This document shows positions 39,785 to 59,457 of a DNA stretch of 64,000 bases, piece by piece. The stretch lies in assembly GCA_029339505.1 (NCBI GenBank), contig JAQISU010000003.1:21271001-21335000 (forward strand), written 5' to 3'. The notes under the pieces are model-generated. The model saw only the letters and a list, made by a program, of their open reading frames with translations. It was not told where the DNA came from and did not search any database. This stretch comes from Unio delphinus. Its lineage: Eukaryota > Mollusca > Bivalvia > Unionida > Unionidae. Made by a program: the position numbers and the translations under genes. Within the stretch, counting starts at the first letter, position 1, and every line of letters begins with the position of its first letter.

Positions 39785-40110
39785 AGTAGTAATAGGGGGC
39801 ACTATAGGGTCTATGGAAAACCCAGTCAAAAACAGCTTGGGGCACTATAGGGTCAAGATTTATAGGGTCAAGGGAAAATCCAGTCAAAAACAGCTTGGGG
39901 CACTATAGGGTCAAAACAGCTTGGGGCACTATAGGGTCAAGGGAAATGGAACAGGGTGGGCCTATATAGCGTCAAGGGAAATGGAACAGGGTGGGCCTAT
40001 ATAGCGTCAAGGGAAATGGAACAGGGTGGGCCTATATAGGGACAAGGGAAAAAAAAGGGCGGCAAAGAAAGTTACTATCTTTTCGAGACCTATGAGTGGC
40101 CCTGAAAAGG
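39785..40110 (+). repeat. Polinton left terminal inverted repeat
   Basis: 326 bp matching the reverse complement of 59445-59770. It has internal structure: three copies of a GGCACTATAGGGTCAA motif, then three tandem 35-bp units (39941-40045, GGGAAATGGAACAGGGTGGG plus CCTATATAGCGTCAA). The inner edge ends inside a histone-like hairpin. Confidence 0.97.
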
Positions 40111-40113
40111 ACC
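40098..40113 (-). terminator. Histone-like 3' stem-loop, copy 1 (left TIR edge)
   Basis: On the minus strand: GGTCCTTTTCAGGGCC, a 6-bp stem with one G-U pair and a TTTC loop, followed by ACTCA and, 12 nt after the stem, CGAAAAGAT. It starts 27 nt after the stop of the minus-strand gene 40141-40374. Confidence 0.88.
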
Positions 40114-40140
40114 GTTATGTGTAATGTTAACGTTGTCTTG

Positions 40141-40374
40141 TTAACACAGAGGACATCTCACAGATCTTCTTCTCTTCCTTAAACTTCTCCTTACTGTGGG
40201 TCCATAGAAGAGAACTCTCTTCAAGCAACCTTGTCTTTCTACATAGACTCTTCTCTTCCAATAGGCTGTCTCCGTCCTATGAATGACACTCCATGATGAT
40301 CTGACATACATGGGTATGTCAGTCCTAAACAGCATGCTAGACACAAGGGTTGACGATTCAACGTTAGTCCACAT
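40141..40374 (-). CDS. Small basic Polinton protein, outward-facing left terminal gene
   Basis: 77 aa, unrecognised. The C-terminus is strongly basic (RRSLRKRRRSVRCPLC). It lacks a membrane segment. Gene status is supported by flanking signals rather than homology: a TATA box (TATAAATAA on this strand, 40416-40424) about 50 bp before the ATG, and a histone-like 3' hairpin 27 nt after the stop. A DNA/RNA-binding role is possible from charge alone. Confidence 0.6.
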   Translation of the reverse strand: MWTNVESSTLVSSMLFRTDIPMYVRSSWSVIHRTETAYWKRRVYVERQGCLKRVLFYGPTVRRSLRKRRRSVRCPLC

Positions 40375-40415
40375 CTTGTGATGAGAACAGGTGAAGCGAA
40401 TGCCGTGAACTGCGG

Positions 40416-40424
40416 TTATTTATA
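40416..40424 (-). promoter_or_regulatory. TATA box for the left terminal gene
   Basis: Minus-strand CCCCTATAAATAACC. It lies 42-50 bp upstream of the ATG at 40374, leaving a short 5' leader. Confidence 0.65.
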
Positions 40425-40520
40425 GGGGAAGAGCGGATTGAAACGGATTGAGTGTATCGACCAATCCAAACACGCGTTACAAAAGTCAGGCACAGTCATC
40501 CAATCGGAAGAGAGCGGCCT

Positions 40521-40545
40521 GTGACGTCACCTTTTCTATATAGAG
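40521..40545 (+). promoter_or_regulatory. CRE/ATF site plus TATA box for the gene at 40593
   Basis: GTGACGTCAC is a perfect palindromic CREB/ATF site (TGACGTCA). It lies 5 bp before TTCTATATAGAGG. The ATG is about 55 bp downstream of the TATA. Confidence 0.75.
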
Positions 40546-40592
40546 GTACTAGCGTCTGTGCGCAGTCAATCGATGAGACAGAGTTGTCAATC

Positions 40593-41240
40593 ATGGCGGA
40601 CAGTAAGAAGACGATGAATTGGAGTGAGTCAGGAGTAGAGACAGCAAGTCATGGGCCAACAGTGACTACTAAAGTCATGACAAATCTACATCCAGAAGAA
40701 GTGGATTTTAACTGGGATATTGTGGATTTTTTAACATCGCAAGAATTTATTCCGGAACCTTCGTTGCCTTCTGTATCTTCTTATGGACACGTCGATGATT
40801 TTAAGCAGAGACAAAAAGAAGAATTGGAGCGATTTTTACAACAACAGAAAGTAGAAGAACAAGCTTTTCTTATGCAACAGCAGGAAGAAGAAGCAAGAAG
40901 GAAACACCAGGAAGAAACAGTAGCAGCAGCAGCAGCAGCAACAGAGAAGAATGAAGACCAAGGACAGAAAGAAAATAGTGAAAATCAAACGGTCACGACG
41001 GTACTTTTAGATATTTTAGCTGAGTTAAGGAGTCTGAAACAAATGTATCAGACTTCTTTATCACGACCGAAGAGAAAAAGACCTTCTCGAGCGAAACAAC
41101 CCGATCTCTCTGTGACTACGTCTACCTTACCACCGTTAGTGATTTCTACCAAATCATTGACAGAAACCACCAGTCCCGAAGTAGGCCTTGGCCGTGGCAA
41201 AGGCTTAAGACAGCTCAAGAGGATTTCGTCCCGTTTCTGA
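40593..41240 (+). CDS. Acidic/Gln-rich coiled-coil accessory protein with basic NLS-like segment
   Basis: 215 aa from the ATG at 40593 (ATCATGG context, downstream of the TATA; the earlier in-frame ATG at 40452 precedes the promoter). About residues 1-65 are acidic with several aromatics. About 65-115 form a Gln/Glu-rich coiled coil (FKQRQKEELERFLQQQKVEE), followed by a poly-Ala tract and then a leucine-rich helix (TVLLDILAELRSLKQMY). Next comes a bipartite-like basic run (RPKRKRPSRAK), and the end is RGKGLRQLKRISSRF. No family is recognised. A nuclear regulatory protein is a reasonable guess. The CRE-type promoter and histone-like 3' end suggest early, cell-cycle-linked expression. Confidence 0.75.
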   Translation: MADSKKTMNWSESGVETASHGPTVTTKVMTNLHPEEVDFNWDIVDFLTSQEFIPEPSLPSVSSYGHVDDFKQRQKEELERFLQQQKVEEQAFLMQQQEEEARRKHQEETVAAAAAATEKNEDQGQKENSENQTVTTVLLDILAELRSLKQMYQTSLSRPKRKRPSRAKQPDLSVTTSTLPPLVISTKSLTETTSPEVGLGRGKGLRQLKRISSRF

Positions 41241-41273
41241 GTTTGTTTTGTTTTAAACAATCAAAACACCAAC

Positions 41274-41289
41274 GGTCCTTTTCAGGGCC
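41274..41289 (+). terminator. Histone-like 3' stem-loop, copy 2
   Basis: GGTCCTTTTCAGGGCC, then ACTCCA. 11 nt after the stem comes CGAAAAGAAATAC. It lies 33 nt after the stop of the gene at 40593. Flanking bases CAAC match copy 1. Confidence 0.9.
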
Positions 41290-41553
41290 ACTCCAATTAT
41301 TTCGAAAAGAAATACTATGTCAATTGCCTATTTCAATGAAAACTCAAAAGTCCTTTTATATATTTTTTAAAATCCATGATGTACGTGTGAGTGAAGGAAT
41401 GTGTGAGTGTAGGTTCTTATTCGATCAAATCAAAACCAAGAGACACTTACGTTTTTTCTCTCTGGTGTATTCTAGTACAAACGTTACAATTCAATATCAC
41501 AACATAACATAACACAATACCATTTTTAAAAAGTTCATAAGTTTTCTTCTGTT

Positions 41554-42021
41554 TCACTCTTTCTGTTTTTTCATTTTCTTTACTGTCACAGCTTTTTCTT
41601 TTTCTTCGTCACTTTCGTTTCGTCTTCTTTTCTTGTTTTTGTGAACGTGACGGGGTTCCTCTTTCTCCTCCTGTTCAGAATTTCTTTCCTCCTCCTCCTC
41701 CTCCTCTTCCTCCGCCTCCTCCTCCTCCTGCTCCTCCTTCTCCTGCTCCTGTTGTTTCTTAGGACAGTTTGGAGACCAATGTCCTTTCTCTTTACAATAA
41801 TAACAGGTATCTTGACTTTTGTCTCTATTGGTACCTTTTTTATTTTTGTCACGATCTGAACATTCTGTAGCCCAATGTCCTTTCTTCTTGCAGATATAGC
41901 AAGTATCTTGACTTTTATCTCGATAGGAGGAAGAGTAGGCCGTCGGCTGGTCTGACGAAAACTTTCGTATGACCCCACGTAAAGCTCTAATGAGAAGTTC
42001 CACTTCTGTAGGTTCTTTCAT
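41554..42021 (-). CDS. CCHC zinc-knuckle protein with acidic tail
   Basis: 155 aa from the ATG at 42021. Two zinc knuckles spaced about 25 residues apart (CYICKKKGHWATEC and CYYCKEKGHWSPNC, each C-x2-C-x4-H-x4-C). A Glu-rich stretch of about 40 residues follows, then a Lys-rich end. Zinc knuckles of this type bind single-stranded nucleic acid (retroviral nucleocapsid, CNBP). The gene is divergent from polB and shares its promoter region. It converges on the gene at 40593 and has no hairpin of the histone type. Role unknown; ssDNA binding during protein-primed replication is an inference. Confidence 0.82.
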   Translation of the reverse strand: MKEPTEVELLIRALRGVIRKFSSDQPTAYSSSYRDKSQDTCYICKKKGHWATECSDRDKNKKGTNRDKSQDTCYYCKEKGHWSPNCPKKQQEQEKEEQEEEEAEEEEEEEEERNSEQEEKEEPRHVHKNKKRRRNESDEEKEKAVTVKKMKKQKE

Positions 42022-42071
42022 CGTTCTGGTCAATGTGAGAGTGAAATGAATACTGAACCGTTAGACACTAA

Positions 42072-42110
42072 CCCTTTATATATGCACGGATCGGACATGA
42101 ATATATAGGG
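42072..42110. promoter_or_regulatory. Divergent promoter with two opposed TATA boxes in an imperfect palindrome
   Basis: AACCCTTTATATATGCACG on the left mirrors CATGAATATATAGGGGTT on the right, centred on GGATCG. The left box serves the zinc-knuckle gene (ATG 42021) and the right box serves polB (ATG 42155). Confidence 0.7.
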
Positions 42111-42154
42111 GTTATGTTCTTTAAAAGGTAGTCATTTGACTTTTTGCAGACAAG

Positions 42155-45100
42155 ATGAAAAGACCACATCATGTTGTGGAGAAAGGAAAAGATAGTAAGA
42201 GACAGAAACTTAATGTATCGCCTAGCACAGTAGCTGAAGTCTTGGCTCAAATTCATGCCAGTGATTTTGAAGATGACATGAGTGAGCCCGAATCTACGCC
42301 TAAGCAATCGACGTCCAAGCAAAGTGCACCACCCTTAGTAAACCCTGAAAATTACTATCACATTCGAGAGACGGAAAAGCGTTCCTCTCGAAAATTAAGA
42401 ACAACGGCTTACACGTATGCCGTAAAGTTTAAAGATTTCAAGGCCAATGTACCTTTGGAGAATACAGAAGGGTTCATTACCGAGGTGTGGGATTCTGTGT
42501 TAACTGCATTGAAACAGCAATGTCAAGCCAAAGAAGACGATCGCTTGAGACTTTCTATTCATCACGATAATTTAAAGTCTCCCGTTTGGATCGAGTTTAC
42601 TAGCCCATCAGAATTAACACCTTCCAAAGTCATTGACAAAATTCAACATGTGCAACAATCCAACGACAAGTTTCACATCACCGATGGAAAAGCCACACTG
42701 TTCATGACCCACGTGTCTCTTCCTGAGGGGACCGGACGCAAAAAAGTGTTATTGGTGGACAGCCTTCGTAACATGAAGCGAAGCCTCGTCCGAATTAACA
42801 ATCCTCAAGACCAGATGTGTTTAGCCCGTGCCATCGTCGTGGGACAAATGTATGTCAACAAGAACGAGACGATAGAATGGAAAAGAGCCTGGGAAACTAT
42901 TCGACAATCGGACCGAGCCAAACAACGAAGTGAAGCAGAACTCCTGTTACAGCAAGCGGGGATATCCAAAGATACCCCTTGCGGTATTCCAGAAATGCAA
43001 AAGTTGCAAGACGTCTTGGCTCCACGTTACACTTTGAAAGTACACCCTCAAGAAGTGCGTGGTCCTCTTTTGTTTCGAGGCCACGATTTCAAAGACGGAA
43101 AATACATTCACGTCTATCATCACGATGGTCATTTTGATACCATTACCAGTATCACTGGATTTCTGAAATTCAGTTACTACTGTGAAAAATGTGACTATGG
43201 TTATAACAATCGAGAACAACACAAGCATTGTGGATCGAAATGTGAGGGATGTTTGGCCTCTCAACCTTGTCTGGACAAAGGACAAGTACGAGTGCATTGC
43301 CCTGTGTGTCAGCGCACTTTTGTCAGTCTTACCTGTTACCAACAACATTTGAAGATGCAAGGTTCACAGCAGAAAAGTACTTGTCAGCTTCTGAGATTGT
43401 GTCCTACTTGTGGACAAGGCATACGTACCAATAGTGTTAAGTTACACGTTTGTCGAGGGAAGAAACGATGTCACATTTGTCGCCAAATTGTGGACTTGGA
43501 GCACGAATGCTTCATTCAAAAATATCAACCCCGACCAGAAGATACCCAGAAGAAAGGGAATTTTATCTTTTTTGATTTCGAATGCATGCAAGAAACTGGT
43601 ATTCACATTCCTAATTTCTGCGTGGCTCACCGTGCGTGCGAGCAGTGCATCCAAGAACCTATCTTTAGTCATTGCCCTTACTGCAGCAAGATTCCTGGAG
43701 GACGTGAAAAAATCTTTCGAGGGTCAAATACGCTAGCCGATTTTGCCCAATGGATCCTAAACCCCATCGACGAAACGTGGAGTCCAGAAGACATCGAACG
43801 TTACGGCGAGTGTCATTGCCATGCCACAGTCATGGCTCACAATTTCTCGGGATACGATGGGCAATTTCTGCTTAGATACTATGCGGAACAAAGTACCGAA
43901 CGGCCTCAAGTGACTTTGAACGGAGCCAAAATCATTTCTATGCAAGTAGGACAAGTACAGTTTAAAGATTCGATGTGTTACTTGGCCATGCCATTAAGTC
44001 GCATGCCTAAAACGTTTGGAATGACAGAAATGGCCAAAGGTTATTTTCCACACTTTTTTAATACCGAAGCCAATCAACATGCCATTCTACCCCATTTGCC
44101 TGAGGTTGACGACTACGACCCCGACAACATGCGCAACGAACAACGAGAAGCTTTCCATGCTTGGTACCAGACTCACGCCTCGGACCCCTTTGACTTTCAA
44201 GAAGAAATTTTAAAGTATTGTCGATCTGACGTGGACATTTTACGACGCTGTTGTGGAAAATTTCGAGAATTGTTCATGGAATACGGAGGGATCGATCCTT
44301 TGAAAGAAGCTTGTACCATTGCCAAAGCATGTTCCTTAGTGTACCGAAAACGCTTTATGCCCGAAAATACTCTAGCGGTCATCAGTCCTCAAACGACGAA
44401 TTTTGTCAAACGTCAATACTCGGTTAAAGCCCTACGCTGGCTCCATTACTTGTGCGACAAGGAAGACAAATGGATCCAACACGCTCGCAACGGAGGAGGC
44501 GAAAAGACCATCGGAACGTATTCGGTAGATGGTTGGGACTTAGAAAACCCTAAGATCGTGTACGAGTTTAACGGATGTTTATTTCACGGATGTCCTCTAT
44601 GCTACCCTCAGCGTAACACCAAAAATCAGTTTTTACAACGAACCATGGAAGATTTGTACCAGACCACGTGTCAGCGACGTTTGAAGTTAGAACAACAAGG
44701 ATACCAGGTAGTGGAAATGTGGGAACACGAGTACGATCTGCGTTTGAAAACCGATCCCGAGTTTAAACGCATCGTAGAAAGTTACAAGTGGGTGGATCCA
44801 TTGAACCCCCGGGATAGTTTGTACGGAGGACGAACGAATGCTACTTGTTTGCTGTACCAAGCGGATGAAGAGAAAGGAGAAGAAATCAAATACTTGGACG
44901 TGTGTTCGCTGTATCCTTACGTGTGCAAATATTGTCACTTTCCCGTAGGGCATCCAGAATTGATGACAGAACACATTGACTTGGACCACATTCGTCAGTA
45001 CGAAGGATTGATCAAGTGTAAAGTCTTACCTCCCACAGACTTGTACCATCCCGTTTTACCTCACCATTGCCAAGGAAAACTGATGTTTCCTTTGTGTCGC

Positions 45101-46225
45101 ACATGTGCCGAAACGTGCAACCAAGACCAACCTTGTCAGCACAGCCTGGAAGAACGCGCCTTGACAGGAACGTGGGTGAGCGTGGAATTGTTTAAAGCTC
45201 TGGACCTGGGATACCAACTGTTAGAAGTGTACGAAATTTATCACTTTCCCAAAACACAACAATACCGCAAGGGCGACGAGAGACAGAAAGGTATTTTTGC
45301 AGACTACGTGGATGCTTTTTTAAAACTAAAACAAGAAGCTAGTGGCTATCCTTCCTGGTGTCACACTCCCGAAGACCAAAAGATATTCAAAGAAAAATAT
45401 CGGGAGCAGGAAGGTATCACTTTAGACCACATCGAGAAAAACGAAGGAAGGCGGTCGTTTGCCAAAGTGATGCTCAATTGCTTGTGGGGTAAAATGGCAC
45501 AACGACCCTCTTTACCCAAGACGGAGTATTTGTCCGAGCCGTCTCGCTACTTCCAGATGATTCACGACAAAACCAAAGTCATGAAACACGTGGACGTCAT
45601 TCGTGAGGACTTGATCTTAGTCAATTACGAAGAAGAACTAGACTTTGTAGAAGCCGACAAATTTGGAAATGTCATCATTGCGGCTTACGTGACAGCCCAC
45701 GCTCGTTTAAAATTGTACGAAGTGTTAGAACTGTTAGGAGATCGTGTGTTGTATTTTGACACGGACAGTTGCATCTACATTCACCGACCGAACCAGTGTA
45801 ACCCTGTCATCGAAGGAGACCGTTTAGGAGCCTGGACCGATGAACATCCCAACGACAAGATTCTATGTTTTGCAAGTGGCGGTCCTAAAAATTACGGTTA
45901 CGAATACCGAGACCCACAAGGAGAAATGCACACCGAATGTAAAGTGAAAGGATTGACTCTCAATTATCGCACCAGTCGAGTGGTGAACTTTAACGTGCTA
46001 CAAGAAGCCTTACAGTCGGGACAGGATGAAACGTTTCAAGTGACTACCCACGAACCGCACAAGATTGTCCGTTTACCTACACACCAAATCGTTAGCCGAC
46101 CTTTGGAAAAAGTCTATCAAATCGTGTACCAAAAAAGAGTACGACTTCCCAATCACTTCACTCTCCCGTACGGTCACGTCGAAATTGGGCAGCATATAAA
46201 AAGGGACATTGTCCAAGACCAATAG
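42155..46225 (+). CDS. polB: Protein-primed family B DNA polymerase
   Basis: 1356 aa. Replicates the element from its termini. All motifs are present: Exo I FFDFE (~473), Exo II HNFSGYDGQF (~562), Exo III YCRSDVDIL (~687), Pol A YLDVCSLYP (~913), Pol B KVMLNCLWGKM (~1104), Pol C YFDTDS (~1200). So both proofreading and polymerisation residues look intact. The long N-terminal extension (about 1-450) includes a Cys/His-rich stretch at about 345-450 (CEKC, CEGC, CPVC, CPTC, CHIC pairs) consistent with several zinc fingers; such extensions in Polintons may hold the priming terminal-protein function. There is no frame break. The ATG follows a TATA box by about 50 bp. Confidence 0.97.
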   Translation: MKRPHHVVEKGKDSKRQKLNVSPSTVAEVLAQIHASDFEDDMSEPESTPKQSTSKQSAPPLVNPENYYHIRETEKRSSRKLRTTAYTYAVKFKDFKANVPLENTEGFITEVWDSVLTALKQQCQAKEDDRLRLSIHHDNLKSPVWIEFTSPSELTPSKVIDKIQHVQQSNDKFHITDGKATLFMTHVSLPEGTGRKKVLLVDSLRNMKRSLVRINNPQDQMCLARAIVVGQMYVNKNETIEWKRAWETIRQSDRAKQRSEAELLLQQAGISKDTPCGIPEMQKLQDVLAPRYTLKVHPQEVRGPLLFRGHDFKDGKYIHVYHHDGHFDTITSITGFLKFSYYCEKCDYGYNNREQHKHCGSKCEGCLASQPCLDKGQVRVHCPVCQRTFVSLTCYQQHLKMQGSQQKSTCQLLRLCPTCGQGIRTNSVKLHVCRGKKRCHICRQIVDLEHECFIQKYQPRPEDTQKKGNFIFFDFECMQETGIHIPNFCVAHRACEQCIQEPIFSHCPYCSKIPGGREKIFRGSNTLADFAQWILNPIDETWSPEDIERYGECHCHATVMAHNFSGYDGQFLLRYYAEQSTERPQVTLNGAKIISMQVGQVQFKDSMCYLAMPLSRMPKTFGMTEMAKGYFPHFFNTEANQHAILPHLPEVDDYDPDNMRNEQREAFHAWYQTHASDPFDFQEEILKYCRSDVDILRRCCGKFRELFMEYGGIDPLKEACTIAKACSLVYRKRFMPENTLAVISPQTTNFVKRQYSVKALRWLHYLCDKEDKWIQHARNGGGEKTIGTYSVDGWDLENPKIVYEFNGCLFHGCPLCYPQRNTKNQFLQRTMEDLYQTTCQRRLKLEQQGYQVVEMWEHEYDLRLKTDPEFKRIVESYKWVDPLNPRDSLYGGRTNATCLLYQADEEKGEEIKYLDVCSLYPYVCKYCHFPVGHPELMTEHIDLDHIRQYEGLIKCKVLPPTDLYHPVLPHHCQGKLMFPLCRTCAETCNQDQPCQHSLEERALTGTWVSVELFKALDLGYQLLEVYEIYHFPKTQQYRKGDERQKGIFADYVDAFLKLKQEASGYPSWCHTPEDQKIFKEKYREQEGITLDHIEKNEGRRSFAKVMLNCLWGKMAQRPSLPKTEYLSEPSRYFQMIHDKTKVMKHVDVIREDLILVNYEEELDFVEADKFGNVIIAAYVTAHARLKLYEVLELLGDRVLYFDTDSCIYIHRPNQCNPVIEGDRLGAWTDEHPNDKILCFASGGPKNYGYEYRDPQGEMHTECKVKGLTLNYRTSRVVNFNVLQEALQSGQDETFQVTTHEPHKIVRLPTHQIVSRPLEKVYQIVYQKRVRLPNHFTLPYGHVEIGQHIKRDIVQDQ
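46193..46203 (+). promoter_or_regulatory. TATA box for the BIR gene, inside the polB 3' end
   Basis: CATATAAAAAGGG about 60 bp before the ATG at 46260, giving an expected leader of about 35 nt. Confidence 0.7.
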
Positions 46226-46259
46226 TTCATTGTGACTAACACAGCCAAGCGAAAAGAAG

Positions 46260-46925
46260 ATGAATCCATTTAAACAGACATCATTCAAGTTTGGGGATTG
46301 TAAAACAAATGTACCTTTCCAGAGTGTGAAAAGTACTGGATGGATAAGACCTATGCATTGCAACGGAAGTTGTCCGGAAGGAAACTGTAAGTGTCCTTGC
46401 GGTATGCACTGTAATTGCGTTACAGAGTGCGATGGTGAACCTTACGATTGTAGTGATGCCAGACGCTGTGACGTTAGCGATTCAGCTGGATATCGTGGGA
46501 ACGTTGCTATGACTACTACCCCTATATCTACCGTGGAAAGTGATGCTGTGCGTGTCAAACCTGAGGGATGCGAAAGCGGTGCCACACGTTATCGTGGACT
46601 CCTAAGAATTTCACCGTACCTGCATCGAACAGAAGTGAGGAGAGTCGAATATTCGTTCCCGACGAGTTTGCCTGAATACTGTCACTTTAAAAGTCGATTC
46701 CAAACCTTCAAAGATAAATGGCCAAAATATCTGCCTGGACCAACTCCTGAAGAATTAGCCAGAGCTGGATTTTTCTACTTGGGCGAAGGAGATAAATTCA
46801 AGTGTTTCAGTTGTGGTGTATCCATTTACGAGTGGGAACAGAAAGATTCCGCTTACTTGGAACATGCTCGATGGTCTCCGAATTGTCAATACCTACCTTT
46901 AGTAGGACCTAGTGATTGGAAGTGA
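46260..46925 (+). CDS. BIR-domain (IAP-like) protein with Cys-rich N-terminus
   Basis: 221 aa. Residues ~143-213 form a BIR domain with the exact zinc ligand spacing C182-x2-C185-x16-H202-x6-C209 and the family signature (RFQTFKDKW, AGFFYLGEGDKFKCFSCG, EHARWSPNCQYL). BIR proteins of the IAP family bind caspases or their activators and block apoptosis. A single BIR without RING is seen here. Residues 34-72 contain ten Cys, several as C-x-C (CKCPCGMHCNC), resembling molluscan metallothionein spacing. This fusion is not one known to me. Likely role: keeping the host cell alive during replication (inference). It is probably a captured host gene. Confidence 0.9.
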   Translation: MNPFKQTSFKFGDCKTNVPFQSVKSTGWIRPMHCNGSCPEGNCKCPCGMHCNCVTECDGEPYDCSDARRCDVSDSAGYRGNVAMTTTPISTVESDAVRVKPEGCESGATRYRGLLRISPYLHRTEVRRVEYSFPTSLPEYCHFKSRFQTFKDKWPKYLPGPTPEELARAGFFYLGEGDKFKCFSCGVSIYEWEQKDSAYLEHARWSPNCQYLPLVGPSDWK

Positions 46926-46937
46926 CACTACTACTCC

Positions 46938-47324: not shown

Positions 47325-47364
47325 TAGTCTTCGACCTAAAAAAGAAGTATAAAAGAGAACGACC

Positions 47365-47583: not shown

Positions 47584-47589
47584 GACAGT

Positions 47590-48181: not shown

Positions 48182-48213
48182 ACATGCATTCAAATAAACG
48201 TGTCTTGAAAAAA

Positions 48214-48222
48214 GTATAAAAA
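48214..48222 (+). promoter_or_regulatory. TATA box for the packaging ATPase
   Basis: AAAGTATAAAAACC, about 60 bp before the ATG at 48274. Confidence 0.7.
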
Positions 48223-48273
48223 CCTCTTGTCTAGTCTGTTTTTGTGTCAATACTGTCATACCACTACACGACT

Positions 48274-51119: not shown

Positions 51120-51156
51120 CAATATGTATGATCCTTCCAGAAGATAAAAGGGATCC

Positions 51157-51891: not shown

Positions 51892-51899
51892 CCTAAACC

Positions 51900-52370
51900 A
51901 TGGAGAAGGTCTTAGCCAGCATTTACTACGATCCAGCTCACCCTGCAGGTTACGGAGGCATTCAGAAATTGTATCGTGCTGCCAAAACTCGCCTGAAAAA
52001 GCTCCGTTTACCTGCAGTACAACGATGGTTACAAGAACAAGCGACGTACACTTTACACAAACCCATTCGACGAAAATTTCACAGAAGTCGCACTCAAGTG
52101 GAAGGCATCGATCATCAATGGCAAGCCGATTTAGCTGATGTCTCTCATTTAGCCACCTACAATCGTGGCTACAAATATTTGTTTTGTGTCATCGATGTCT
52201 TTTCTAAATTTGCCTGGGTCGTACCGTTGACATCCAAATCGAGCGGAGAGTTAGTACGAGCTTTGCAACTGGTGTTGAAACAAAGTGGTCGTCACCCTCT
52301 TCGATGGCAAACCGACAAAGGCACCGAATTTCTAAACCAAGCTTTCCAACGAGAATTAAAAAAAACGTGA
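51900..52370 (+). pseudogene. int: Integrase, N-terminal part (frameshifted)
   Basis: Retroviral-type (rve, RNase H fold) integrase that would insert the element and create the 6-bp duplication. This part covers the N-terminal helical region and two catalytic Asp (WQADLADV and QTDKGTEF). It stops at 52368-52370, just after a run of eight A (52358-52365). The remainder, with the catalytic Glu, continues in the +1 frame. One base too many in the A-run accounts for the break. It may be a true mutation or a homopolymer base-call error. Confidence 0.9.
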
Positions 52371-53013
52371 CATTCATTTTTTCACCACCGAAAATCCTGA
52401 AACCAAAGCCAGTATCGTGGAACGTTTTCAACGTACCTTGAAAGAACGCATGTGGAAATATTTTACGCATCAACACACTCTCAAATACATCGACGTCTTA
52501 CCGCACTTAGTCCAAGCCTACAATCAATCTTACCATAGAAGCATTGGACGTTCCCCACAAGAGGTGACACCTGACAACGAAGTAACTGTTTTTGAGCGTC
52601 TGTTTGGTACGTCCCGAACGAGGGCTGTCCCCAACAAAGGTGGAGAAGTGTTAACCCCGGGAGATTGGGTACGCATTGGTAAAACCAAACGCACTTTCGA
52701 CAAAGGTTACTTACCCAATTGGACTACCGAATTGTTTCGTGTTACTGAACGAGTGCGTGGCCGTCATCCTACCGTCTATAAATTGGAAGACATGAACGGA
52801 GAAGTATTAAAAGGAACGTTTTACTTGCCTGAGTTACAACGTGTCACCAAAAAAGAAGACGACGTGTACGACATTGAAAGCATTCTCGAACGAAGAACTC
52901 GTAAAGTAGGAAAACGACGTGTCAAAGAAGTCAAAGTACGTTGGAAAGGATATCCTCCTAGTTTTGATTCTTGGATTGACGCTGCCCAAGTCATCGACTA
53001 TAAAAAGAAGTGA
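52371..53013 (+). pseudogene. int: Integrase, C-terminal part with chromodomain
   Basis: Continues in the shifted frame: catalytic Glu in IVERFQRTLKERM, then the AYNQSYHRSIGRSPQE block, an SH3-like DNA-binding region (LTPGDWVRIGK) and a C-terminal chromodomain (YDIESILERR ... VKVRWKGYPPSFDSWI). The chromodomain, which reads methylated histone tails in chromoviral integrases, may steer insertion. Apart from the one-base shift the reading frame is clean. Confidence 0.92.
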
Positions 53014-53018
53014 CCATC

Positions 53019-53438
53019 ATGCCCTTCAATACAGCTTCGGCAACCACAGTGACTTCTCCTTCACCCACGTCATCTCTGCAAGATTTACAAAAGCAACCCT
53101 TGTGGGTGTGGTGTGGAGAACGTGTCCCTAAAACCCAAATCGTCTTTTTCTGTCAAATCTTTGTGGTGTATTGTGTTATCGGTGCAGCCATTGCTAATTT
53201 GAGTTTGCAACAAGGAGACAAACAATTGTGGACCATTTTACTCAGCAGTTGCATCGGGTATCTTCTTCCCAATCCTTCCCTGAAATACTCTTACAACGGG
53301 AACAACAATAACACTATTGGGAGCCTTGCGGCCAACGTTAGTCCTTCTCCTGACAGTCACCCTTCCAATCACAATCCTCTTTTAGACACTCCTTTAACCT
53401 CGAGTGACTCCTCGGACAGAACAACATTGGAATTATGA
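53019..53438 (+). CDS. Two-helix membrane protein conserved in Polintons
   Basis: 139 aa from the ATG at 53019 (the frame extends 5' only with GTG). Two adjacent hydrophobic segments (IVFFCQIFVVYCVIGAAIAN and LWTILLSSCIGYLLPNPSLK) form a hairpin. The tail is Ser/Pro/Asn-rich. The LLSSCIGYLLPNPSLK ending is one I know from small proteins next to Polinton capsid genes. Its stop overlaps the next start (ATGA), implying translational coupling or a shared transcript. Confidence 0.75.
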   Translation: MPFNTASATTVTSPSPTSSLQDLQKQPLWVWCGERVPKTQIVFFCQIFVVYCVIGAAIANLSLQQGDKQLWTILLSSCIGYLLPNPSLKYSYNGNNNNTIGSLAANVSPSPDSHPSNHNPLLDTPLTSSDSSDRTTLEL

Positions 53439-54376
53439 ACAACACTATTAACCAATTTTACTTAACGTTACCCAGTGACAGTTCCATGGAGGTGTTTCCT
53501 AACAACACGTTGTGCTGTTACACGGCTAAATTACCTCAAACCATGCATTTGGATCAAGATGATCATTGGGAAGTAGCTTTAGTGGAAATAATACACCCGA
53601 CACAAATCAAAAACATCGTCGAAAATCAAAACACTTTTACAGTTGAAGTGTATGACGAGCAATTGCAAAAAGCCTTAGACGCACGAGGTAAAGGTGGCGA
53701 AAAGAAATCAGATGGACCCAAAACTAATGTCCTGTCCACTCATAAGTTCGTCATTCCTCCAGGTTATTATTTCAGTGGTCAACATTTAGTGAATACGATT
53801 GTAACCAGGTTCAATGTTATGTTTGGTAAAGCCATGGAGTCCTTTGCAAACTCAAAAAACCCAAAAAGTGTGACCATTGAGTACTATTCAGTGTCTCGTC
53901 GACTCATGATGACATTTTCAGAGGAGAAAATGATGGCCATTACTTTTTGTCCTGAATTGTTTGATATTTTAGGTGGAGACCTCAAGATGCTCCCGAACAA
54001 AAAGCAAATACCAGGCATAACCAGTAACTCGGATTTTGCAAAATATTTTCGATTCCCTATTGAATTGAACCAAGGTCTCAACTTGATGTTTGTGTACTCC
54101 GATGTGGCAGAGTACAACGTGGTAGGACACACCTCTGCACCGTTACTGCGTGTCATTCCTTTCAAAGTGGATTCTGACACTACCGATAAAGAGGAAGGTG
54201 GAAATACCAATCACGTTCACCGTGAATTTGTACATCCTCATTATTTACCCGTCAGTAAGTCGTATTTCGACAGTGTCAACATTTCTATAAAAGGAGAACT
54301 AGGACAAAATATTCCATTTACCAAAGGGAAAGTCACAGTGAAACTCCATTTTCAAAAACGATTCTCCAACAACTGA
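53435..54376 (+). CDS. Minor capsid (penton-like) protein
   Basis: 313 aa. The N-terminus FYLTLPSDSSMEVFPNNTL and LPQTMHLDQDDHWEVALVEI is the hallmark of Polinton/adintovirus minor capsid proteins, predicted to form a single jelly-roll at icosahedral vertices. Beta-rich throughout, with no signal or membrane segment. It sits directly before the pVI-like and major capsid genes, the usual order. Confidence 0.88.
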   Translation: MNNTINQFYLTLPSDSSMEVFPNNTLCCYTAKLPQTMHLDQDDHWEVALVEIIHPTQIKNIVENQNTFTVEVYDEQLQKALDARGKGGEKKSDGPKTNVLSTHKFVIPPGYYFSGQHLVNTIVTRFNVMFGKAMESFANSKNPKSVTIEYYSVSRRLMMTFSEEKMMAITFCPELFDILGGDLKMLPNKKQIPGITSNSDFAKYFRFPIELNQGLNLMFVYSDVAEYNVVGHTSAPLLRVIPFKVDSDTTDKEEGGNTNHVHREFVHPHYLPVSKSYFDSVNISIKGELGQNIPFTKGKVTVKLHFQKRFSNN

Positions 54377-54383
54377 AAAAGTG

Positions 54384-54824
54384 ATGTATCCTGTGTACCG
54401 AGGAGTCACTCGACAACGAGGACATGGCTTAGGAGATATGTTTAAATCAGCCTTTCGTTCCGTGGTCCCTGTTTTGAAACCGATGGTGACACGAGGATTG
54501 CACGCCTTAAAAGATGCCGCATTGACTCACGGCAAAGATTTTCTTCACAATGTTCTCATTGACAAACAAAACCCAAAAGAAGCTTTTTTGAGAGCAGGCA
54601 AAAATGTCTTACTTCAAACGGGTAAAGAGATTTTGGGTCGACGAGAAAGTCCTATAAATGCCCTGAACGGTACCGAGTCTGACATTCCTGCTTCCCTGAC
54701 GACACAGCAAGGACAAGGTAGAAAGCGACGACGAAGGCACAATTTCAAAAGTCTCCGTACCTCTAAAGTGAGAAAGACGAAGAAAAAAAGAACCGCTCGA
54801 GACTTAGACATTTTTGATTATTAA
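54384..54824 (+). CDS. pVI-like / minor virion protein
   Basis: 146 aa. N-terminal YRGVTRQRGHGLGDMFKSAF, then an amphipathic region (VVPVLKPMVTRGLHALKDAA) and a strongly basic C-terminus (GRKRRRRHNFK, VRKTKKKR). Polinton proteins of this layout sit between the two capsid genes and are compared with adenovirus pVI, which links hexon to membrane disruption. The comparison is by position and style only. Confidence 0.7.
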   Translation: MYPVYRGVTRQRGHGLGDMFKSAFRSVVPVLKPMVTRGLHALKDAALTHGKDFLHNVLIDKQNPKEAFLRAGKNVLLQTGKEILGRRESPINALNGTESDIPASLTTQQGQGRKRRRRHNFKSLRTSKVRKTKKKRTARDLDIFDY

Positions 54825-54851
54825 AAGTGAAGAAAAAAACATAAAGAAAAA

Positions 54852-56207
54852 ATGATGCACCAAGAATCTTGTGCCTGTTCCAAGTCGGAACTAGATCTCT
54901 TTGCCATGCCACCCACCATGACAACCATGCAAGAAGCCCAATGGGTCGAATTTCATCCCGTCTCCTCTTTGACGGATTCAGCTCCCATCGAGTTTGAAAT
55001 CAAAGGACAACCCGAAGATTACATCGATCTCAACAACAGTTACTTGTATTTGAAAGTGAAAGTGAGTAGAACGGACAACACCGATCCAGCAGCCGATGCC
55101 CAAGTAGCTCCCGTCAACAATTTCATGCATTCTTTGTTCAGCGAAGTGGATTTGTACATGAATAACAAACTGATCAGCAGTAGCACGGATACTTACCCTT
55201 ACCGAGCGTACCTCGAAAATCTCTTGACGTACGGAAAAGAAGCCAAGAACACTCATTTAGATGCTTGTGTGGTATGGAAACCTGACACCGCAGGTGAGAA
55301 TACATTTAACGACACAGCCTTGTCCGTAGCAGCAGCAGCTGCTGAGGGCGTCAATCCTGCCATTCCTGCCAATCCTCACAATGTGGGTTTTAACGAGCGT
55401 CGAAAGAAAATTCTGCGAGGACGTAGTTTAGAACTGTTCGATCGTTTGCATTTGGACATGTGGTTTCAAGAGAAGTATTTGCTGAACGGAGTAGATATTC
55501 GCTTGAGACTGAATCGTAGCAGTGCTGCTTTCCATTTGATGGCTGATGCCAACACATACAAAACCATCATCCAAGAAGCCAGGTTATACGTGCGTCGTGT
55601 GGAAGTGTTACCTAAAGTGGGAAATGATATCAGTCATACTTTGAGCAGAACGACAGCCAAGTATCCGATACGACGCGTGGAAGTAAAAACGTTCACCATT
55701 GCCAAGGACCTTAGATCCAAGATCGAAGATCATCTGTTCCAAGGACAGTTACCCAAACGTTTATTCATCGGTATCGTCAGCAATGCAGCCTTCAACGGTG
55801 CCCACAATATCAATCCTTTCCAGTTTAAGCACTGCGGAGTAACCAAAATCGAAGTCAGTCGCGATGGCAAAACTTTGTGTACCAGACCTTTCGAACCCAA
55901 CTTTGCCGCGAAGAATTACTTGAGGTCGTACTTGTCACTGTACGAAGCCACAGGACAGTTAGGAACCAACACCAGTCACGGTATTTCCTACGAAGATTAT
56001 GCAGGAGGTTACACGTTGTGGGCTTTTGATTTCACTCCAGACCAAGGCAGTGACGAGGGACATTTCCACCCTATAAAATCTGGGCAACTGCGTGTGGAAC
56101 TTCAGTTTGCAGAGACTCTTCCCGAAACGGTGAATGTCATTCTGTATGCTGAATTCGATAATACCATAGAAATCAACAGTTTGAGAGAAGTCATTCTAGA
56201 CTATTAG
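54852..56207 (+). CDS. Major capsid protein (double jelly-roll hexon)
   Basis: 451 aa. IEFEIKGQPEDYIDLNNSYLYLKVKV, MHSLFSEVDLYMNNKLIS, YPYRAYLENLLTYG and the C-terminal region (GQLRVELQFAETLPETVNVILYAEF) are the conserved blocks of Polinton/adintovirus major capsid proteins. The family predicts two eight-stranded jelly-rolls forming pseudo-hexagonal trimers. Complete, with no frame break. An alternative start one codon later (54855) is possible. Confidence 0.95.
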   Translation: MMHQESCACSKSELDLFAMPPTMTTMQEAQWVEFHPVSSLTDSAPIEFEIKGQPEDYIDLNNSYLYLKVKVSRTDNTDPAADAQVAPVNNFMHSLFSEVDLYMNNKLISSSTDTYPYRAYLENLLTYGKEAKNTHLDACVVWKPDTAGENTFNDTALSVAAAAAEGVNPAIPANPHNVGFNERRKKILRGRSLELFDRLHLDMWFQEKYLLNGVDIRLRLNRSSAAFHLMADANTYKTIIQEARLYVRRVEVLPKVGNDISHTLSRTTAKYPIRRVEVKTFTIAKDLRSKIEDHLFQGQLPKRLFIGIVSNAAFNGAHNINPFQFKHCGVTKIEVSRDGKTLCTRPFEPNFAAKNYLRSYLSLYEATGQLGTNTSHGISYEDYAGGYTLWAFDFTPDQGSDEGHFHPIKSGQLRVELQFAETLPETVNVILYAEFDNTIEINSLREVILDY

Positions 56208-56212
56208 ACACT

Positions 56213-56710
56213 ATGGAAGACCCTTGTCCTTCTTTGAATAGTGGAGAATCCATGGAATGGGAGGTTACAGAAAAAGCAGATCCCCAAGACCTAAAAGAAG
56301 AAGTAGTGATCATGCAATCCAGATGGCCAGAACAGGAACAACAGTTAGTGGCTTGTTTTGCACAACACTTGGAAGCTAAAATGAGGGACATGATTAAAAA
56401 AGATTGTTATGGATGTCAAATGGATCATCCCAGTCAAATTCAACACGATAAATGTATGATGATGAGTCAAGAAGAAAAATTGGACGATTATCTGAACGAA
56501 GCTTGGAGTCTCATCTCCGAAGAAGACGTGTTACTTCAGTGGTATAAAGGCTTACGTGATCATTCCTCTCCTCCATTGTTTGCTCGAGAAATCGATCGCA
56601 TCGAAGCTCTCTTGGCCAAAAGTAAAGAGACGAAGCAAACCATTAGTTACTTGTCAGACCGTTTCAAGCAAAAAGTCTGGATTGAATTGATGACTTATCA
56701 TCATCTGTGA
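56213..56710 (+). CDS. Conserved Polinton protein with CYGCQMDHPSQ motif
   Basis: 165 aa, beginning 6 nt after the capsid gene. The core motif CYGCQMDHPSQIQHDKC gives C-x2-C ... H ... H ... C, which could bind zinc. I recognise it from uncharacterised proteins encoded beside Polinton capsid genes. The rest is helical and acidic. Function unknown. Confidence 0.7.
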   Translation: MEDPCPSLNSGESMEWEVTEKADPQDLKEEVVIMQSRWPEQEQQLVACFAQHLEAKMRDMIKKDCYGCQMDHPSQIQHDKCMMMSQEEKLDDYLNEAWSLISEEDVLLQWYKGLRDHSSPPLFAREIDRIEALLAKSKETKQTISYLSDRFKQKVWIELMTYHHL

Positions 56711-56745
56711 AGAAAGGAGAAAAAAACAAGGCTACACAACAAAAA

Positions 56746-56928
56746 ATGGATACTTGGGAACTTTATTATCTTTTGAACCGTAGTTCGTACACTGCTTCTT
56801 GGAATCCTGTGGTGTGTGCTAAAGATGAACTACCTCATCGCAAACCTCAAGAGAATCAAGCTTATGTCATCAACACAGATGACAGTCATCTTCCAGGAAC
56901 TCACTGGGTAGCTGTCTACTTTTTTTGA
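56746..56928 (+). pseudogene. Adenain-like cysteine protease, N-terminal fragment
   Basis: 60 aa from the ATG at 56746. AYVINTDDSHLPGTHWVAVYF contains the catalytic His (GTHW) of adenain/Ulp1-type maturation proteases. The chain stops at 56926-56928, after a T-run (56920-56926). A one-base change in that run would extend it only about a dozen codons, so the acidic partner and the catalytic Cys are absent. A normal Polinton protease is about three times longer. Without it, core precursors with GG sites could not be processed by this copy. Confidence 0.82.
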
Positions 56929-56945
56929 CTCATCCTACTACGAAG

Positions 56946-57308
56946 ATGTGCTCAAGACTAGCTAAGCTGAACGAAGCTTATGTCACTCTGCATCGTATCA
57001 GACACAATCTGATGCCAAAGCCTGAAGAGATTGAGAATGTGAGAATGCTACAAGAAACGGAAGACCTCATAGAAGAACTCTTCAGAGAGGAAATTCAAAA
57101 AGAGAAAGAAGAATGGACTGAGAAGTATCGACTTCAAAAGCAGCAGAGAGAGCAGAGAGAACAGCAGCAGCAGCAACAGCAACAACAGCAGCAGGAACCA
57201 GACAGAAGTTTTGTCGACTGTCGTGTGGACACGAAAGAGTTCTCTTTCTCTTTCCGAAGAAGCAGACCCTATCGTGTAGCCAAACGAGGACGCAATCTTA
57301 GACGATAA
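56946..57308 (+). CDS. Coiled-coil poly-Gln accessory protein
   Basis: 120 aa from the ATG at 56946. A helical coiled coil (LQETEDLIEELFREEIQKEKEEW), a Gln tract (about 11 Gln) and a basic C-terminus (RRSRPYRVAKRGRNLRR). Unrecognised. It lies just downstream of the broken protease and ends 40 nt before a histone-like hairpin, as do the other peripheral genes. Confidence 0.7.
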   Translation: MCSRLAKLNEAYVTLHRIRHNLMPKPEEIENVRMLQETEDLIEELFREEIQKEKEEWTEKYRLQKQQREQREQQQQQQQQQQQEPDRSFVDCRVDTKEFSFSFRRSRPYRVAKRGRNLRR

Positions 57309-57348
57309 AAGATTGCCATCCTTCCTCGTACACACAAACACAAAAAAC

Positions 57349-57364
57349 AGCCCTTTTCAGGGCT
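57349..57364 (+). terminator. Histone-like 3' stem-loop, copy 3
   Basis: AGCCCTTTTCAGGGCT with a perfect 6-bp stem, A-rich 5' flank (AAAAAAC) and ACCCA 3' flank, the canonical histone form. CGAAAAGAATT follows 12 nt after the stem. Confidence 0.92.
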
Positions 57365-57539
57365 ACCCAATATTCTCGAAAAGAATTAATCATTCAATTT
57401 GCTTATGGTATGTGAGGAAGTTAGAAAAAAATTAGAAGTGAGTCTATAATCACTATCTCATTTTACTTTTGTTTTGAAGTGCGTCTATAAGCACAACGTA
57501 TTTTTTTTAAAATAACTTGTTCAATTTATAATTAATATG

Positions 57540-57666
57540 AGTCAAGTATAAAAGTGAGAGTATTTTCCATCACGTCAGCGTGTTTTTTGGTAATGATAGG
57601 GATAATGTAAGTTTTTTGGATCTAGGGGGTGTTTTCCATCACGTCCGCGCTTGAACTATATATAAA
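57540..57666 (+). promoter_or_regulatory. Promoter region with duplicated CACGTC box and TATA
   Basis: TTTTCCATCACGTCAGCGTG (57563-57582) and GTTTTCCATCACGTCCGCGC (57631-57650) are diverged copies of one box. The second is followed by TATATATAAAG at 57657, about 50 bp before the ATG at 57713. An additional TATAAAAG lies at 57548. The GGGGGTGTTT...CACGTCCG...TATATATA arrangement recurs at 58760. Confidence 0.72.
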
Positions 57667-57712
57667 GAAGCACTCGTCAGTCTGGCTACCCATCGTTGGC
57701 GCATCAAAGAAG

Positions 57713-58189
57713 ATGAGCAGAGTTCAAAAGTTAAGAGAGCTTCAAATGCATCTGGAGAATGCTAGACGTCTCCTGGACGAGCTGGCAATGGAGGCCAAAG
57801 AAGAAGAGACCAGAATTAAAGAAGAGGAGGAGAGGAAAAAGAAAGAAGAGGAGAAGGAAATGAAAATGTCAATTTTGCCTCACCCCATGATGAGGCAAAC
57901 TAGTCAAGTTAAACCTATGGTGAGGACACCTTCACCAGAACCAGTTCGTCCACTACAGGCACAGACCCCAACGCAACAACCACAGTCTCAGCCGCAACAA
58001 TCACAGCCTCATCCACGGTTGCGGAATAGAGGAAGAAATGAAGAGACTTTCACTATCCCTCAAACAGAAGATTGGGATAGTGAAGCCACTCATTCTCCCT
58101 CTGCGCTCCCAATCACAAGAGTGAATTGGGAGAATGATTGGAGTAGGAGATGTGTGTGTGGGGCTAGACCTGGGAGATGCCAGCATTAA
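57713..58189 (+). CDS. Coiled-coil, Pro/Gln-rich accessory protein
   Basis: 158 aa from the ATG at 57713, downstream of the TATA. A charged coiled coil (LQMHLENARRLLDELAMEAK then a Glu/Lys run), a Pro/Gln region (QTPTQQPQSQPQQSQ), and an end with three Cys (RRCVCGARPGRCQH). Unrecognised. The histone-like hairpin starts 28 nt after the stop. Could be a nuclear regulator; no direct evidence. Confidence 0.7.
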   Translation: MSRVQKLRELQMHLENARRLLDELAMEAKEEETRIKEEEERKKKEEEKEMKMSILPHPMMRQTSQVKPMVRTPSPEPVRPLQAQTPTQQPQSQPQQSQPHPRLRNRGRNEETFTIPQTEDWDSEATHSPSALPITRVNWENDWSRRCVCGARPGRCQH

Positions 58190-58217
58190 CCAGGTGCATT
58201 TTGAAGTTTAAAAAAAC

Positions 58218-58233
58218 AGTCCTTCTCAGGGCT
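58218..58233 (+). terminator. Histone-like 3' stem-loop, copy 4
   Basis: AGTCCTTCTCAGGGCT: a 6-bp stem with one G-U pair, TCTC loop, 5' AAAAAAC and 3' ACCCA. AGAAAAGAAATAC follows 12 nt after the stem. Confidence 0.9.
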
Positions 58234-58317
58234 ACCCAAATGTCTAGAAAAGAAATACTATGTCAATTGCCAATGGGTGTGAGAGAGGAGTAGTGTGATT
58301 ATAAACACTGACTCTAT

Positions 58318-58450
58318 TTAGATAGTATATGGTGTGATTTTGGATAGTATATGATAGGGTGTGTTTTTGGCTGCTTCCCCGTGTGTGTGTGTGGTTAGTA
58401 TAGGGTGTGATTTTGGATAGTATACAGTATGGTTTGTTTTGGCTACTTCC

Positions 58451-58484
<34 letters not shown>

Positions 58485-58541
58485 TTAGTATAGGGTGTGA
58501 TTTTGGATAGTAAATAATAGGGTGTGTTTTTAGCTGCTTCC

Positions 58542-58613
<72 letters not shown>

Positions 58614-58755
58614 ATAGTATACAGTGTGATTTGGGATAGTAAATAATAGGGTGTGTTTTGGCTGCTTCACCGTGTGTGTGTGTGTGGATAGTATATAATG
58701 TGATTTGGGATAGTATATAATATGATTTGTGAATAGTATATAATATGAAAAGTGA
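58318..58755. repeat. GT-rich tandem array inside the Polinton
   Basis: About five units combining (GT)n tracts of different length with GGATAGTATATAATGTGATT and GGCTGCTTCCCC. The open frames with His-Thr runs on the other strand are artefacts of it. Confidence 0.9.
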
Positions 58756-58759
58756 ATGT

Positions 58760-58802
58760 AGGGGGTGTTTACTTTCACGTCCGTGCTTAAGATATATATA
58801 CG
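58760..58802 (+). promoter_or_regulatory. Promoter with conserved CACGTCCG box and TATA
   Basis: GGGGGTGTTTACTTTCACGTC then CGTGCTTAAGATATATATACG. Matches 57624-57666 in order and spacing. The ATG is at 58846. Confidence 0.75.
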
Positions 58803-58845
58803 CAATCGTCGGTCCTTGGAGCCATTCAATTTTGAACACATCAAG

Positions 58846-59421
58846 ATGAATTTTGAATTGTTTATCCAACTCCGAGACAGCTGGTTTGGGATCCTTGATG
58901 CAGAATATGAAGTGGAAAGACTTGAGGAAGAATTTCAAAGTAACCATGGCTTTGTAAGCCAACTGAAATTAGCAAGAGATCTATTAGAAGGTATGATAGA
59001 GGAGGAAGACCAGAAATTAAGAAGACGTATTAAAAGAAAATATATAAGAATAGGGGATTTGAAGCAGGCACTTGATCATGTCATCAAAGTCAGGTGCTTT
59101 CTAGAAGAAACATTACATCTCATAGAGTGGGAATATGTGCAGTGGGGTCTAGACAGGCTAAAGAAAGCAGAAGCAATGATGAGAATGGTGATGGAAGAAC
59201 AGGTGATCCAGATTAAAGAAAACTGGTCTAAGGAGAGAAAGGAAAAAAAGAACAAAAGGAAGAAAGAGGACTTTGATCTACTCAATCTAAGATGGATGAG
59301 AGTTCAGGAAAAGTTTCGAGCTATGGGACATCCTGACTGGATTCCCGAGGACGAAAAGAAGAAGAAGAAAACGGGAATCATTGGTAAACTTAAAAGGTGG
59401 TGGAACAACGACAGAAAATAA
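58846..59421 (+). CDS. Helical, basic accessory protein, outward-facing right terminal gene
   Basis: 191 aa from the ATG at 58846. Almost entirely alpha-helical by composition, with several coiled-coil segments (LDAEYEVERLEEEFQS, LIEWEYVQWGLDRLKKAE), a Lys-rich stretch and the end KLKRWWNNDRK. Unrecognised. The stop is 20 nt before the histone-like hairpin at the right inverted repeat, mirroring the arrangement at the left end. Confidence 0.72.
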   Translation: MNFELFIQLRDSWFGILDAEYEVERLEEEFQSNHGFVSQLKLARDLLEGMIEEEDQKLRRRIKRKYIRIGDLKQALDHVIKVRCFLEETLHLIEWEYVQWGLDRLKKAEAMMRMVMEEQVIQIKENWSKERKEKKNKRKKEDFDLLNLRWMRVQEKFRAMGHPDWIPEDEKKKKKTGIIGKLKRWWNNDRK

Positions 59422-59441
59422 AAGAAGAAGAAGTATCCAAA

Positions 59442-59457
59442 GGCCCTTTTCAGGGCC
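59442..59457 (+). terminator. Histone-like 3' stem-loop, copy 5 (right TIR edge)
   Basis: GGCCCTTTTCAGGGCC: a perfect 6-bp stem and TTTC loop, with CCAAA before and ACTCA after. CGAAAAGATAG follows 12 nt after the stem. Most of it lies within the right terminal inverted repeat. Confidence 0.92.

Follow-up and report, generated by a model that had tools for sequence, protein, structure and literature searches.

Histone-type 3' ends on five genes of a Polinton in the bivalve Unio delphinus, and their predicted use of the host SLBP/U7 pathway

Can a mobile element give genes that are not histone genes the 3' end of a replication-dependent histone gene, and what would it gain from doing so? The question is raised by a stretch of 64,000 nucleotides (nt) from Unio delphinus (GenBank assembly GCA_029339505.1, contig JAQISU010000003.1, positions 21,271,001 to 21,335,000 of the forward strand; hereafter the window, whose own numbering is used throughout), which holds a 20-kb transposon of the Polinton class. 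An earlier, sequence-only reading of the window had noticed histone-mRNA-type hairpins behind five genes of this element. Our analysis leads us to think that these five genes very probably carry the 3' signal of the host's histone genes, and that they are thereby predicted for SLBP/U7 processing and for use in S phase.

The pathway itself is well described. SLBP binds the stem-loop of the histone mRNA, U7 small nuclear RNA pairs with a histone downstream element (HDE) and CPSF73 cuts 4-5 nt 3' of the stem (PMC7026596), and histone mRNAs are non-polyadenylated and linked to S phase (PMC5011920). For the bivalve Lucina pectinata, the palindrome is reported in all histone mRNAs and the purine element in some (PMC6210712).

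The hairpins of the Polinton are numbered H1 to H5, and hairpin H1 is to be kept apart from the host histone of that name. Hairpin H1 (40098..40113, minus strand; GGUCCU-UUUC-AGGGCC-ACUCA) stands 3' of the gene Pm, H2 (41274..41289, plus strand; GGUCCU-UUUC-AGGGCC, the stem of H1, then ACUCCA) 3' of P1, H3 (57349..57364, plus strand; AGCCCU-UUUC-AGGGCU-ACCCA) 3' of P2, H4 (58218..58233, plus strand; AGUCCU-UCUC-AGGGCU-ACCCA) 3' of P3 and H5 (59442..59457, plus strand; GGCCCU-UUUC-AGGGCC-ACUCA) 3' of P4. Reading each site confirmed the positions, the 6-bp stems, the UUUC or UCUC loops and the ACCCA or ACUC(C)A that the sequence-only reading had described: every stem is fully paired with G-C as its second pair, every loop is of the 4-nt UYUN type and an A lies right 3' of every stem, with a single G-U pair in each of H1, H2 and H4. 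The distance from stop codon to stem, 27, 33, 40, 28 and 20 nt for H1 to H5, is within the 20-40 nt claimed. The purine block had been placed a constant 11-12 nt after the stem; the constancy held and the distance is corrected to 12-13 nt, at which C/AGAAAAGA starts, the core GAAAAGA itself starting at 13-14 nt in all five cases (40078..40084 on the minus strand for H1; 41304..41310, 57378..57384, 58247..58253 and 59471..59477 on the plus strand for H2 to H5).

The Rfam model of the histone stem-loop, RF00032 (Histone3; cut-off 34 bits), with which it had been proposed to check the hairpins, was run over the window to E<=5 and accepts only part of them: H3 and H5, at 34.9 bits each, lie above the cut-off, and H1 (25.1 bits, E 0.0099), H2 (29.8 bits, E 1.8e-4) and H4 (22.7 bits, E 0.082) lie below it. 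Beyond the five hairpins, no RF00032 match at E<=5 was found within the 64-kb window. The three low scores are what could be said for a chance resemblance, a reading to which we give almost no credence and which we count as already refuted, since the window holds five instances of a composite motif (a paired stem with a T[TC]TN loop, then GAAAAGA at the proper distance), as against five in all of 806 simulated 64-kb windows of equal composition (0.006 expected per 64 kb), and since the hairpins persist in copies of the element and match the host's histone genes, as described below.

The genes that bear these ends are two divergent genes at the left of the element, Pm and P1, and three at the right, P2, P3 and P4. 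Pm (40141..40374, minus strand) encodes a very basic protein of 77 amino acids with an isoelectric point (pI) of 11.3, and has TATAAAT at 40424 on the same strand. When the window is compared with three copies, the Pm ratio of non-synonymous to synonymous substitution (dN/dS) comes to 0.27-0.31; those three copies, compared with one another, give 0.46-0.92, as expected for copies in decay. By its codons Pm looks like a real gene. The suggestion that hairpin H1 is a mere mirror of H5 was ruled out, as H1 follows this 77-codon frame with its low dN/dS. P1 (40593..41240, plus strand; 215 amino acids) belongs to a conserved family with no Pfam match over the cut-off, and its predicted structure is helical at low confidence (mean predicted local distance difference test score, pLDDT, 63.5). 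P2 (56883..57308), which is glutamine-rich with a basic C-terminus, P3 (57626..58189, ATG at 57713) and P4 (58762..59421, ATG at 58846) are stop-to-stop frames of the plus strand, the start of P2 being uncertain. Pfam scans of P1 to P4 gave neither a histone domain nor any other match over the cut-off; to judge from their sequences, these four have ends of the histone-gene type yet are not histone genes. The central block of the element (polymerase, integrase, capsid) has no Histone3 match 3' of any gene in the window search at E<=5. Between the divergent Pm and P1, at 40522-40529, lies the cyclic AMP response element (CRE)-like TGACGTCA, accompanied by CCAAT-like motifs.

How closely do these ends resemble those of the host? 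On contig C15 the host histone repeat carries H2A, H1, H3, H4 and H2B genes, with Histone3 matches mostly every 6,817 nt, and among named proteins the closest relatives of the host histone H1 come from mussels and oysters. In the repeat that was read, each of the five histone genes has GGYCCU-UUUN-AGGRCC at its end and, 13-14 nt 3' of the stem, an HDE that is GAAAAGA in four of them and GAAAAAGA in H2A. The Polinton ends share hairpin type, purine core and spacing with the host's clustered histone genes. Further 3', the host has ATTGCC at histone H2A and H1 and ATGCC at histone H3, with neither at H4 and H2B, and in the Polinton a distal TTGCC follows hairpins H1, H2, H4 and H5, and TTTGC follows H3. 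The RNA-binding domain of SLBP (PF15247) was found in the host as two exons on contig C166 (59.5 and 38.5 bits) and in none of 14 control genomes. With the metazoan replication-dependent histone mRNA end in general (RF00032; SLBP and the U7 small nuclear ribonucleoprotein, snRNP) the Polinton genes have in common the 6-bp stem, the UYUN loop, the A after the stem, a purine HDE with the host core at 13-14 nt, the short distance from the stop and uninterrupted short frames; they differ in being non-histone genes (P1-P4) borne by a mobile element, in the outer A-U pair of two of the hairpins and in that their processing is predicted. A separate host locus with an H2B-like gene has the hairpin GGCCCUUUUCAGGGCC and, after it, a hairpin-like stretch in inverted orientation; it is probably a decayed histone copy.

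The likeness extends upstream in two of the genes, which share a promoter element with histone genes of the host. Host histones H1 and H2B have in common GTTTTCAATCACGTCCGC, which begins within 73-101 nt of the ATG and has a TATA-like box after it, and the core of the element also occurs on the minus strand before host H2A. P3 has GTGTTTTCCATCACGTCCGC (57629..57648, plus strand; then TATATATAA at 57657) and P4 has GTGTTTACTTTCACGTCCGT (58765..58784, plus strand; then TATATATA at 58793), TATATATA coming after both; as the best 20-nt matches to host histone promoters, these agree at 19/20 and 17/20 positions, in each case with histone H1, as against 14-16/20 for 17 other upstream regions, Pm and P1 among them. 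A second, weaker copy with three mismatches lies at 57560..57579 on the plus strand. At up to three mismatches the element has two matches in the window and none in 100 shuffles; its ten-base core has four window matches at up to one mismatch (0.92 expected), of which three lie at P3/P4 and the fourth falls within the polymerase gene. Elsewhere in the host the exact core was seen in 11 of 104 loci, from seven distinct Polinton copies, plus both cluster loci, and a looser scan of 30 loci (L007-L036) gave nine matches with TATA, two of which (L014 at 771, and L033) are probably due to chance. The element may be akin to the vertebrate H4 site II / HINFP motif, a likeness that the literature searched did not confirm. 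Taken together, the promoter element of histone H1 type and the shared distal TTGCC suggest a host histone gene as the source of the signals, with histone H1 as the best candidate donor.

The element itself was delimited by an inverted-repeat search, its ends being read by eye: it spans 39785..59770 (19,986 bp, no strand assigned) between 6-bp target-site duplications (TSDs) CTGCAG at 39779-39784 and 59771-59776, likewise read by eye, and many host copies align starting at 39785 or up to 59770, that is, with the same ends. Pfam scans identified a viral-type family B polymerase (DNA_pol_B_2, 145 bits), an integrase with rve (45.9 bits) and chromodomain (chromo, 33.4 bits) in adjoining frames, and an A32-type packaging ATPase (Pox_A32, 29.6 bits). 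The capsid-type open reading frame at 54831-56207 is itself without a Pfam match, and its relative P0116 (45% identity) matches DJR-like_dom at 31.4 bits (cut-off 27). Polymerase, integrase, ATPase, double jelly-roll-type capsid protein, terminal inverted repeats (TIRs) and 6-bp TSD thus place the element, on its predicted proteins and ends, among the Polintons, and these are the features that it shares with Polinton/Maverick and adintovirus-like animal elements. It differs from those others in the histone-type 3' ends of its five terminal genes, of which there are none in the fragments of six distant relatives.

The TIRs bear on a further explanation, namely that the hairpins stand outside the histone pathway, as generic signals for ending transcription or for hairpin-guided polyadenylation, or as DNA signals used in replication at the TIRs. 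The left TIR (39785..40116) reaches inward as far as the foot of hairpin H1 and the right TIR (59439..59770) as far as that of H5, the two hairpins being twin copies, one per TIR, by the inverted-repeat search; hairpin-guided polyadenylation is moreover known in mimivirus and offers a precedent. H2 to H4 nevertheless lie outside the TIRs, by which the hairpin as a TIR-only feature was ruled out, the host's histone genes have this stem, loop, HDE core and spacing, and the central genes have no Histone3 match at E<=5, so that we hold such generic signals to be very improbable. As H1 and H5 are twins, the five hairpins amount to four independent sites; the earlier count of five genes stands in that each hairpin, including that of Pm, follows a gene, and is reduced in this respect.

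Is the signal kept in other copies of the family? When the 2.5-Gb host genome was searched with Histone3, only 75 of 434,796 first-look candidates were scored; the search is thus not a census, and neither H3 nor H5 of the window is among the matches listed. It gave at least 74 matches, 69 of those listed being over the cut-off, and one of the 14 control genomes had a match, below it. Six of the 74 listed are in the histone cluster (three read, three assigned by the repeat spacing). The 68 listed outside it were all fetched: 61 have Polinton genes alongside, four align to the right end or TIR, one (L044) is alike only around the hairpin and two belong to H2B. Among the matches listed, then, 65-66 are in copies of this Polinton family and eight at histone genes.

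These copies had been chosen by a hairpin, and persistence was therefore judged at hairpins not used for the choice, 20 of the 22 listed H5 copies being read further upstream. H4 was kept in each of the nine copies whose P3 end was located by protein, and in a tenth that was located through its flank; five of the ten have 6/6 pairs, four 5/6 and one 4/6, and GAAAAGA is at the normal distance in eight (displaced in L062, altered in L071). H3 was kept in five of seven copies with P2, three with 6/6 and two with 5/6 pairs, and with GAAAAGA in four of the five (altered in L071). H2 was present in five of ten copies reaching the end of P1, with six pairs in four and five pairs in one, part of these stems being read by eye. 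Three P1 copies that stop short of the P1 end (L079, L080, L082) were set aside, and the H2 and H3 counts are given without L104 (P1) and without L096-L098 and L103 (P2). Three Polinton left ends that lie close together on one host contig, C222 (L013, L018, L022), have Pm and P1 with different sequence after P1 and no H2; they may be one duplication.

Outside this genome, the protein collection contains 19 relatives of P1. One of these, P0140, is without a stop and reads on as QWPISGPPTSLEKRYYVNCQFQ (also given as QWPISGPPTSLEKRYYVNCQF); its read-through codons, read by eye, fit GGCCNA-UHUC-NGGNCC, 13 nt, GARAARMG and TAYTAYGTNAAYTGY, which is the layout of H2 and H4, the top stem pair not being decidable from a protein, and the other 18 relatives end at stops and are uninformative. 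A search of IMG/VR returned no relatives by polymerase, capsid alignment, P1 alignment or two hairpin DNA patterns. Histone-type ends would appear from this to be shared by at least a subgroup of Polintons, which is not to claim them for all.

An explanation that takes these likenesses at face value is that a histone gene end was once captured and that the hairpins are inherited remnants of no present use. The likeness to the host histone H1 gene at both ends would fit this, as would the decay of many copies and the breakage of some hairpins. Such remnants account less easily for four independent sites that belong to unrelated genes and all lie 20-40 nt 3' of a stop, or for the same layout in the P0140 read-through. 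In addition, hairpin and HDE are conserved above the adjoining untranslated region (UTR): mean pairwise identity at H4 is 0.86 in the hairpin and 0.92 in the HDE against 0.70-0.78 in averaged neighbouring regions, and the two values at H3 are 0.89 and 0.94, compared with 0.66 for the UTR that immediately precedes it. Covariation was measured on 27 sites (five from the window, 16 from copies and six from the host; without the broken H2 of L019, the P1 ends of L013, L018 and L022, and the later L077, L078, L081, L083 and L084). In this set 95.1% of cells pair; double changes that preserve pairing occur in 13 cells and the score is 0.269, each value being reached by 0/500 shuffles, with slid controls at 0.083 or less, and three of the six stem pairs have double changes, which 35/500 shuffles also reach. 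The stem pairs thus covary across sites by this alignment, and we regard useless remnants as improbable.

A number of observations weigh against the view that the five genes use the host's histone signal, and they deserve to be gathered here. Three of the five hairpins score under the Rfam cut-off, H1 and H5 are TIR twins, and an AATAAA overlaps the P4 stop. The outer A-U pair of hairpins H3 and H4 is absent from six aligned host histone hairpins, and no histone-type promoter stands before Pm or P1 (the upstream regions tested did not include P2). H3 is missing in two of the seven copies with P2 (L072, L073), H2 is broken in two and absent in three (one contig) of the ten assessable P1 ends, and the HDE is altered or displaced in some copies (L062, L071, L078). 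Other stretches are conserved too: the last codons of P3 at 0.81-0.87, the coding end of P2 at 0.88 and the stretch at 58285-58310 at 0.93-0.95. The number of pair types does not exceed that of shuffles (277/500), the double change at the outer pair may be a single inherited event, and covariation cells count sequences. Finally, no Histone3 match at E<=1 was found in the contigs of six distant relatives in the prokaryote genome collection (symbiont and other assemblies), which have 26-45% capsid identity and are mostly fragments, most of them not covering the element ends. Against these stand the host histone genes, the persistence in copies, the covariation and the host SLBP domain, which together support the histone-mRNA-type architecture that the sequence-only reading had proposed; its expectation of hairpins in related elements was borne out by many host copies and by the layout of P0140, and was not by the fragments of the distant relatives. 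The conserved stretch at 58285-58310, downstream of H4, contains GAGGAGTAGTGTGATTATAAACAC, has an identity among copies equal to or above that of the hairpin and may be a further promoter.

What, then, would the element do with these ends? SLBP binding, U7 pairing, cleavage, absence of poly(A) and S-phase timing are steps that we infer from the known pathway. The host SLBP would bind the hairpins of the Pm, P1, P2, P3 and P4 transcripts, the host U7 snRNP would pair with their GAAAAGA elements, and the transcripts would be cut just 3' of the hairpin to give mRNAs without poly(A) tails, which would likely be made and translated mainly in S phase. The likely benefit would be a supply of small accessory or DNA-binding proteins, such as the strongly basic Pm, during host DNA replication, the time at which an element with its own DNA polymerase could best replicate.

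It could also be that the ends work in two modes: the hairpin would mainly serve translation or stability through SLBP, and some of the transcripts would receive poly(A) tails further on, as in some histone variants. The AATAAA that overlaps the P4 stop would permit poly(A) use, and with it a dual mode, at P4, and dual 3' ends are reported for H2A.X (PMC7807067). With such H2A.X-type genes the Polinton shares the hairpin and a possible AATAAA, with the difference that AATAAA is found here only at P4 and before the hairpin. All five window sites have the HDE at a distance suited to processing, and there is no AATAAA or ATTAAA on the coding strand within 200 nt 3' of any of the five hairpins, for which reasons a dual mode seems to us rather unlikely; AATAAA or ATTAAA near some central-gene stops is not decisive.

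In its widest form, the preferred reading of histone-pathway processing is that the transposon has made non-histone genes into honorary replication-dependent histone genes, with an SLBP/U7 3' end, a histone promoter element for two of them and mRNAs without poly(A) whose making, use and destruction follow the S-phase clock, its copies holding most of the 74 listed best-scoring host stem-loops; this we think reasonably likely.

The pathway is known, and its use by the non-histone genes of a mobile element is new to us. The sequence-only reading had likewise known of no such signals in Polintons, and among the literature matches listed, which lie mostly outside the subscription literature and were available in part, there is no report of histone-type 3' ends in Polintons, viruses or transposons. 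We know of no other selfish user of the histone 3'-end pathway; if the interpretation is right, this Polinton would be, to our knowledge, the first such user of the complete signal, and it would become testable how Polintons time their replication to that of the host and in what way cis signals alone could tie the genes of a virus to S phase. A practical consequence is that hairpin-based histone annotation in mollusc genomes can wrongly catch Polintons.

Some further features of the window may be recorded. Within the Polinton, a gene with a BIR (inhibitor of apoptosis) domain lies at 46236-46925, and a zinc-knuckle (zf-CCHC) protein frame on the minus strand at 41554-42060, between P1 and the polymerase. 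Directly upstream of P2, a short frame with GTHWVAVYF (56747-56925) ends early; we take it to resemble the start of an adenovirus-type (adenain-type) cysteine protease, and by its sequence this protease gene looks broken in the window copy. The TIRs are largely built of 26/35/58-nt repeats (39803-40051), and tandem GT-rich repeats (58318-58750) separate H4 from P4. Outside the Polinton, at 19828-21435, lies a large tandem array of about 38 copies of a 43-nt unit.

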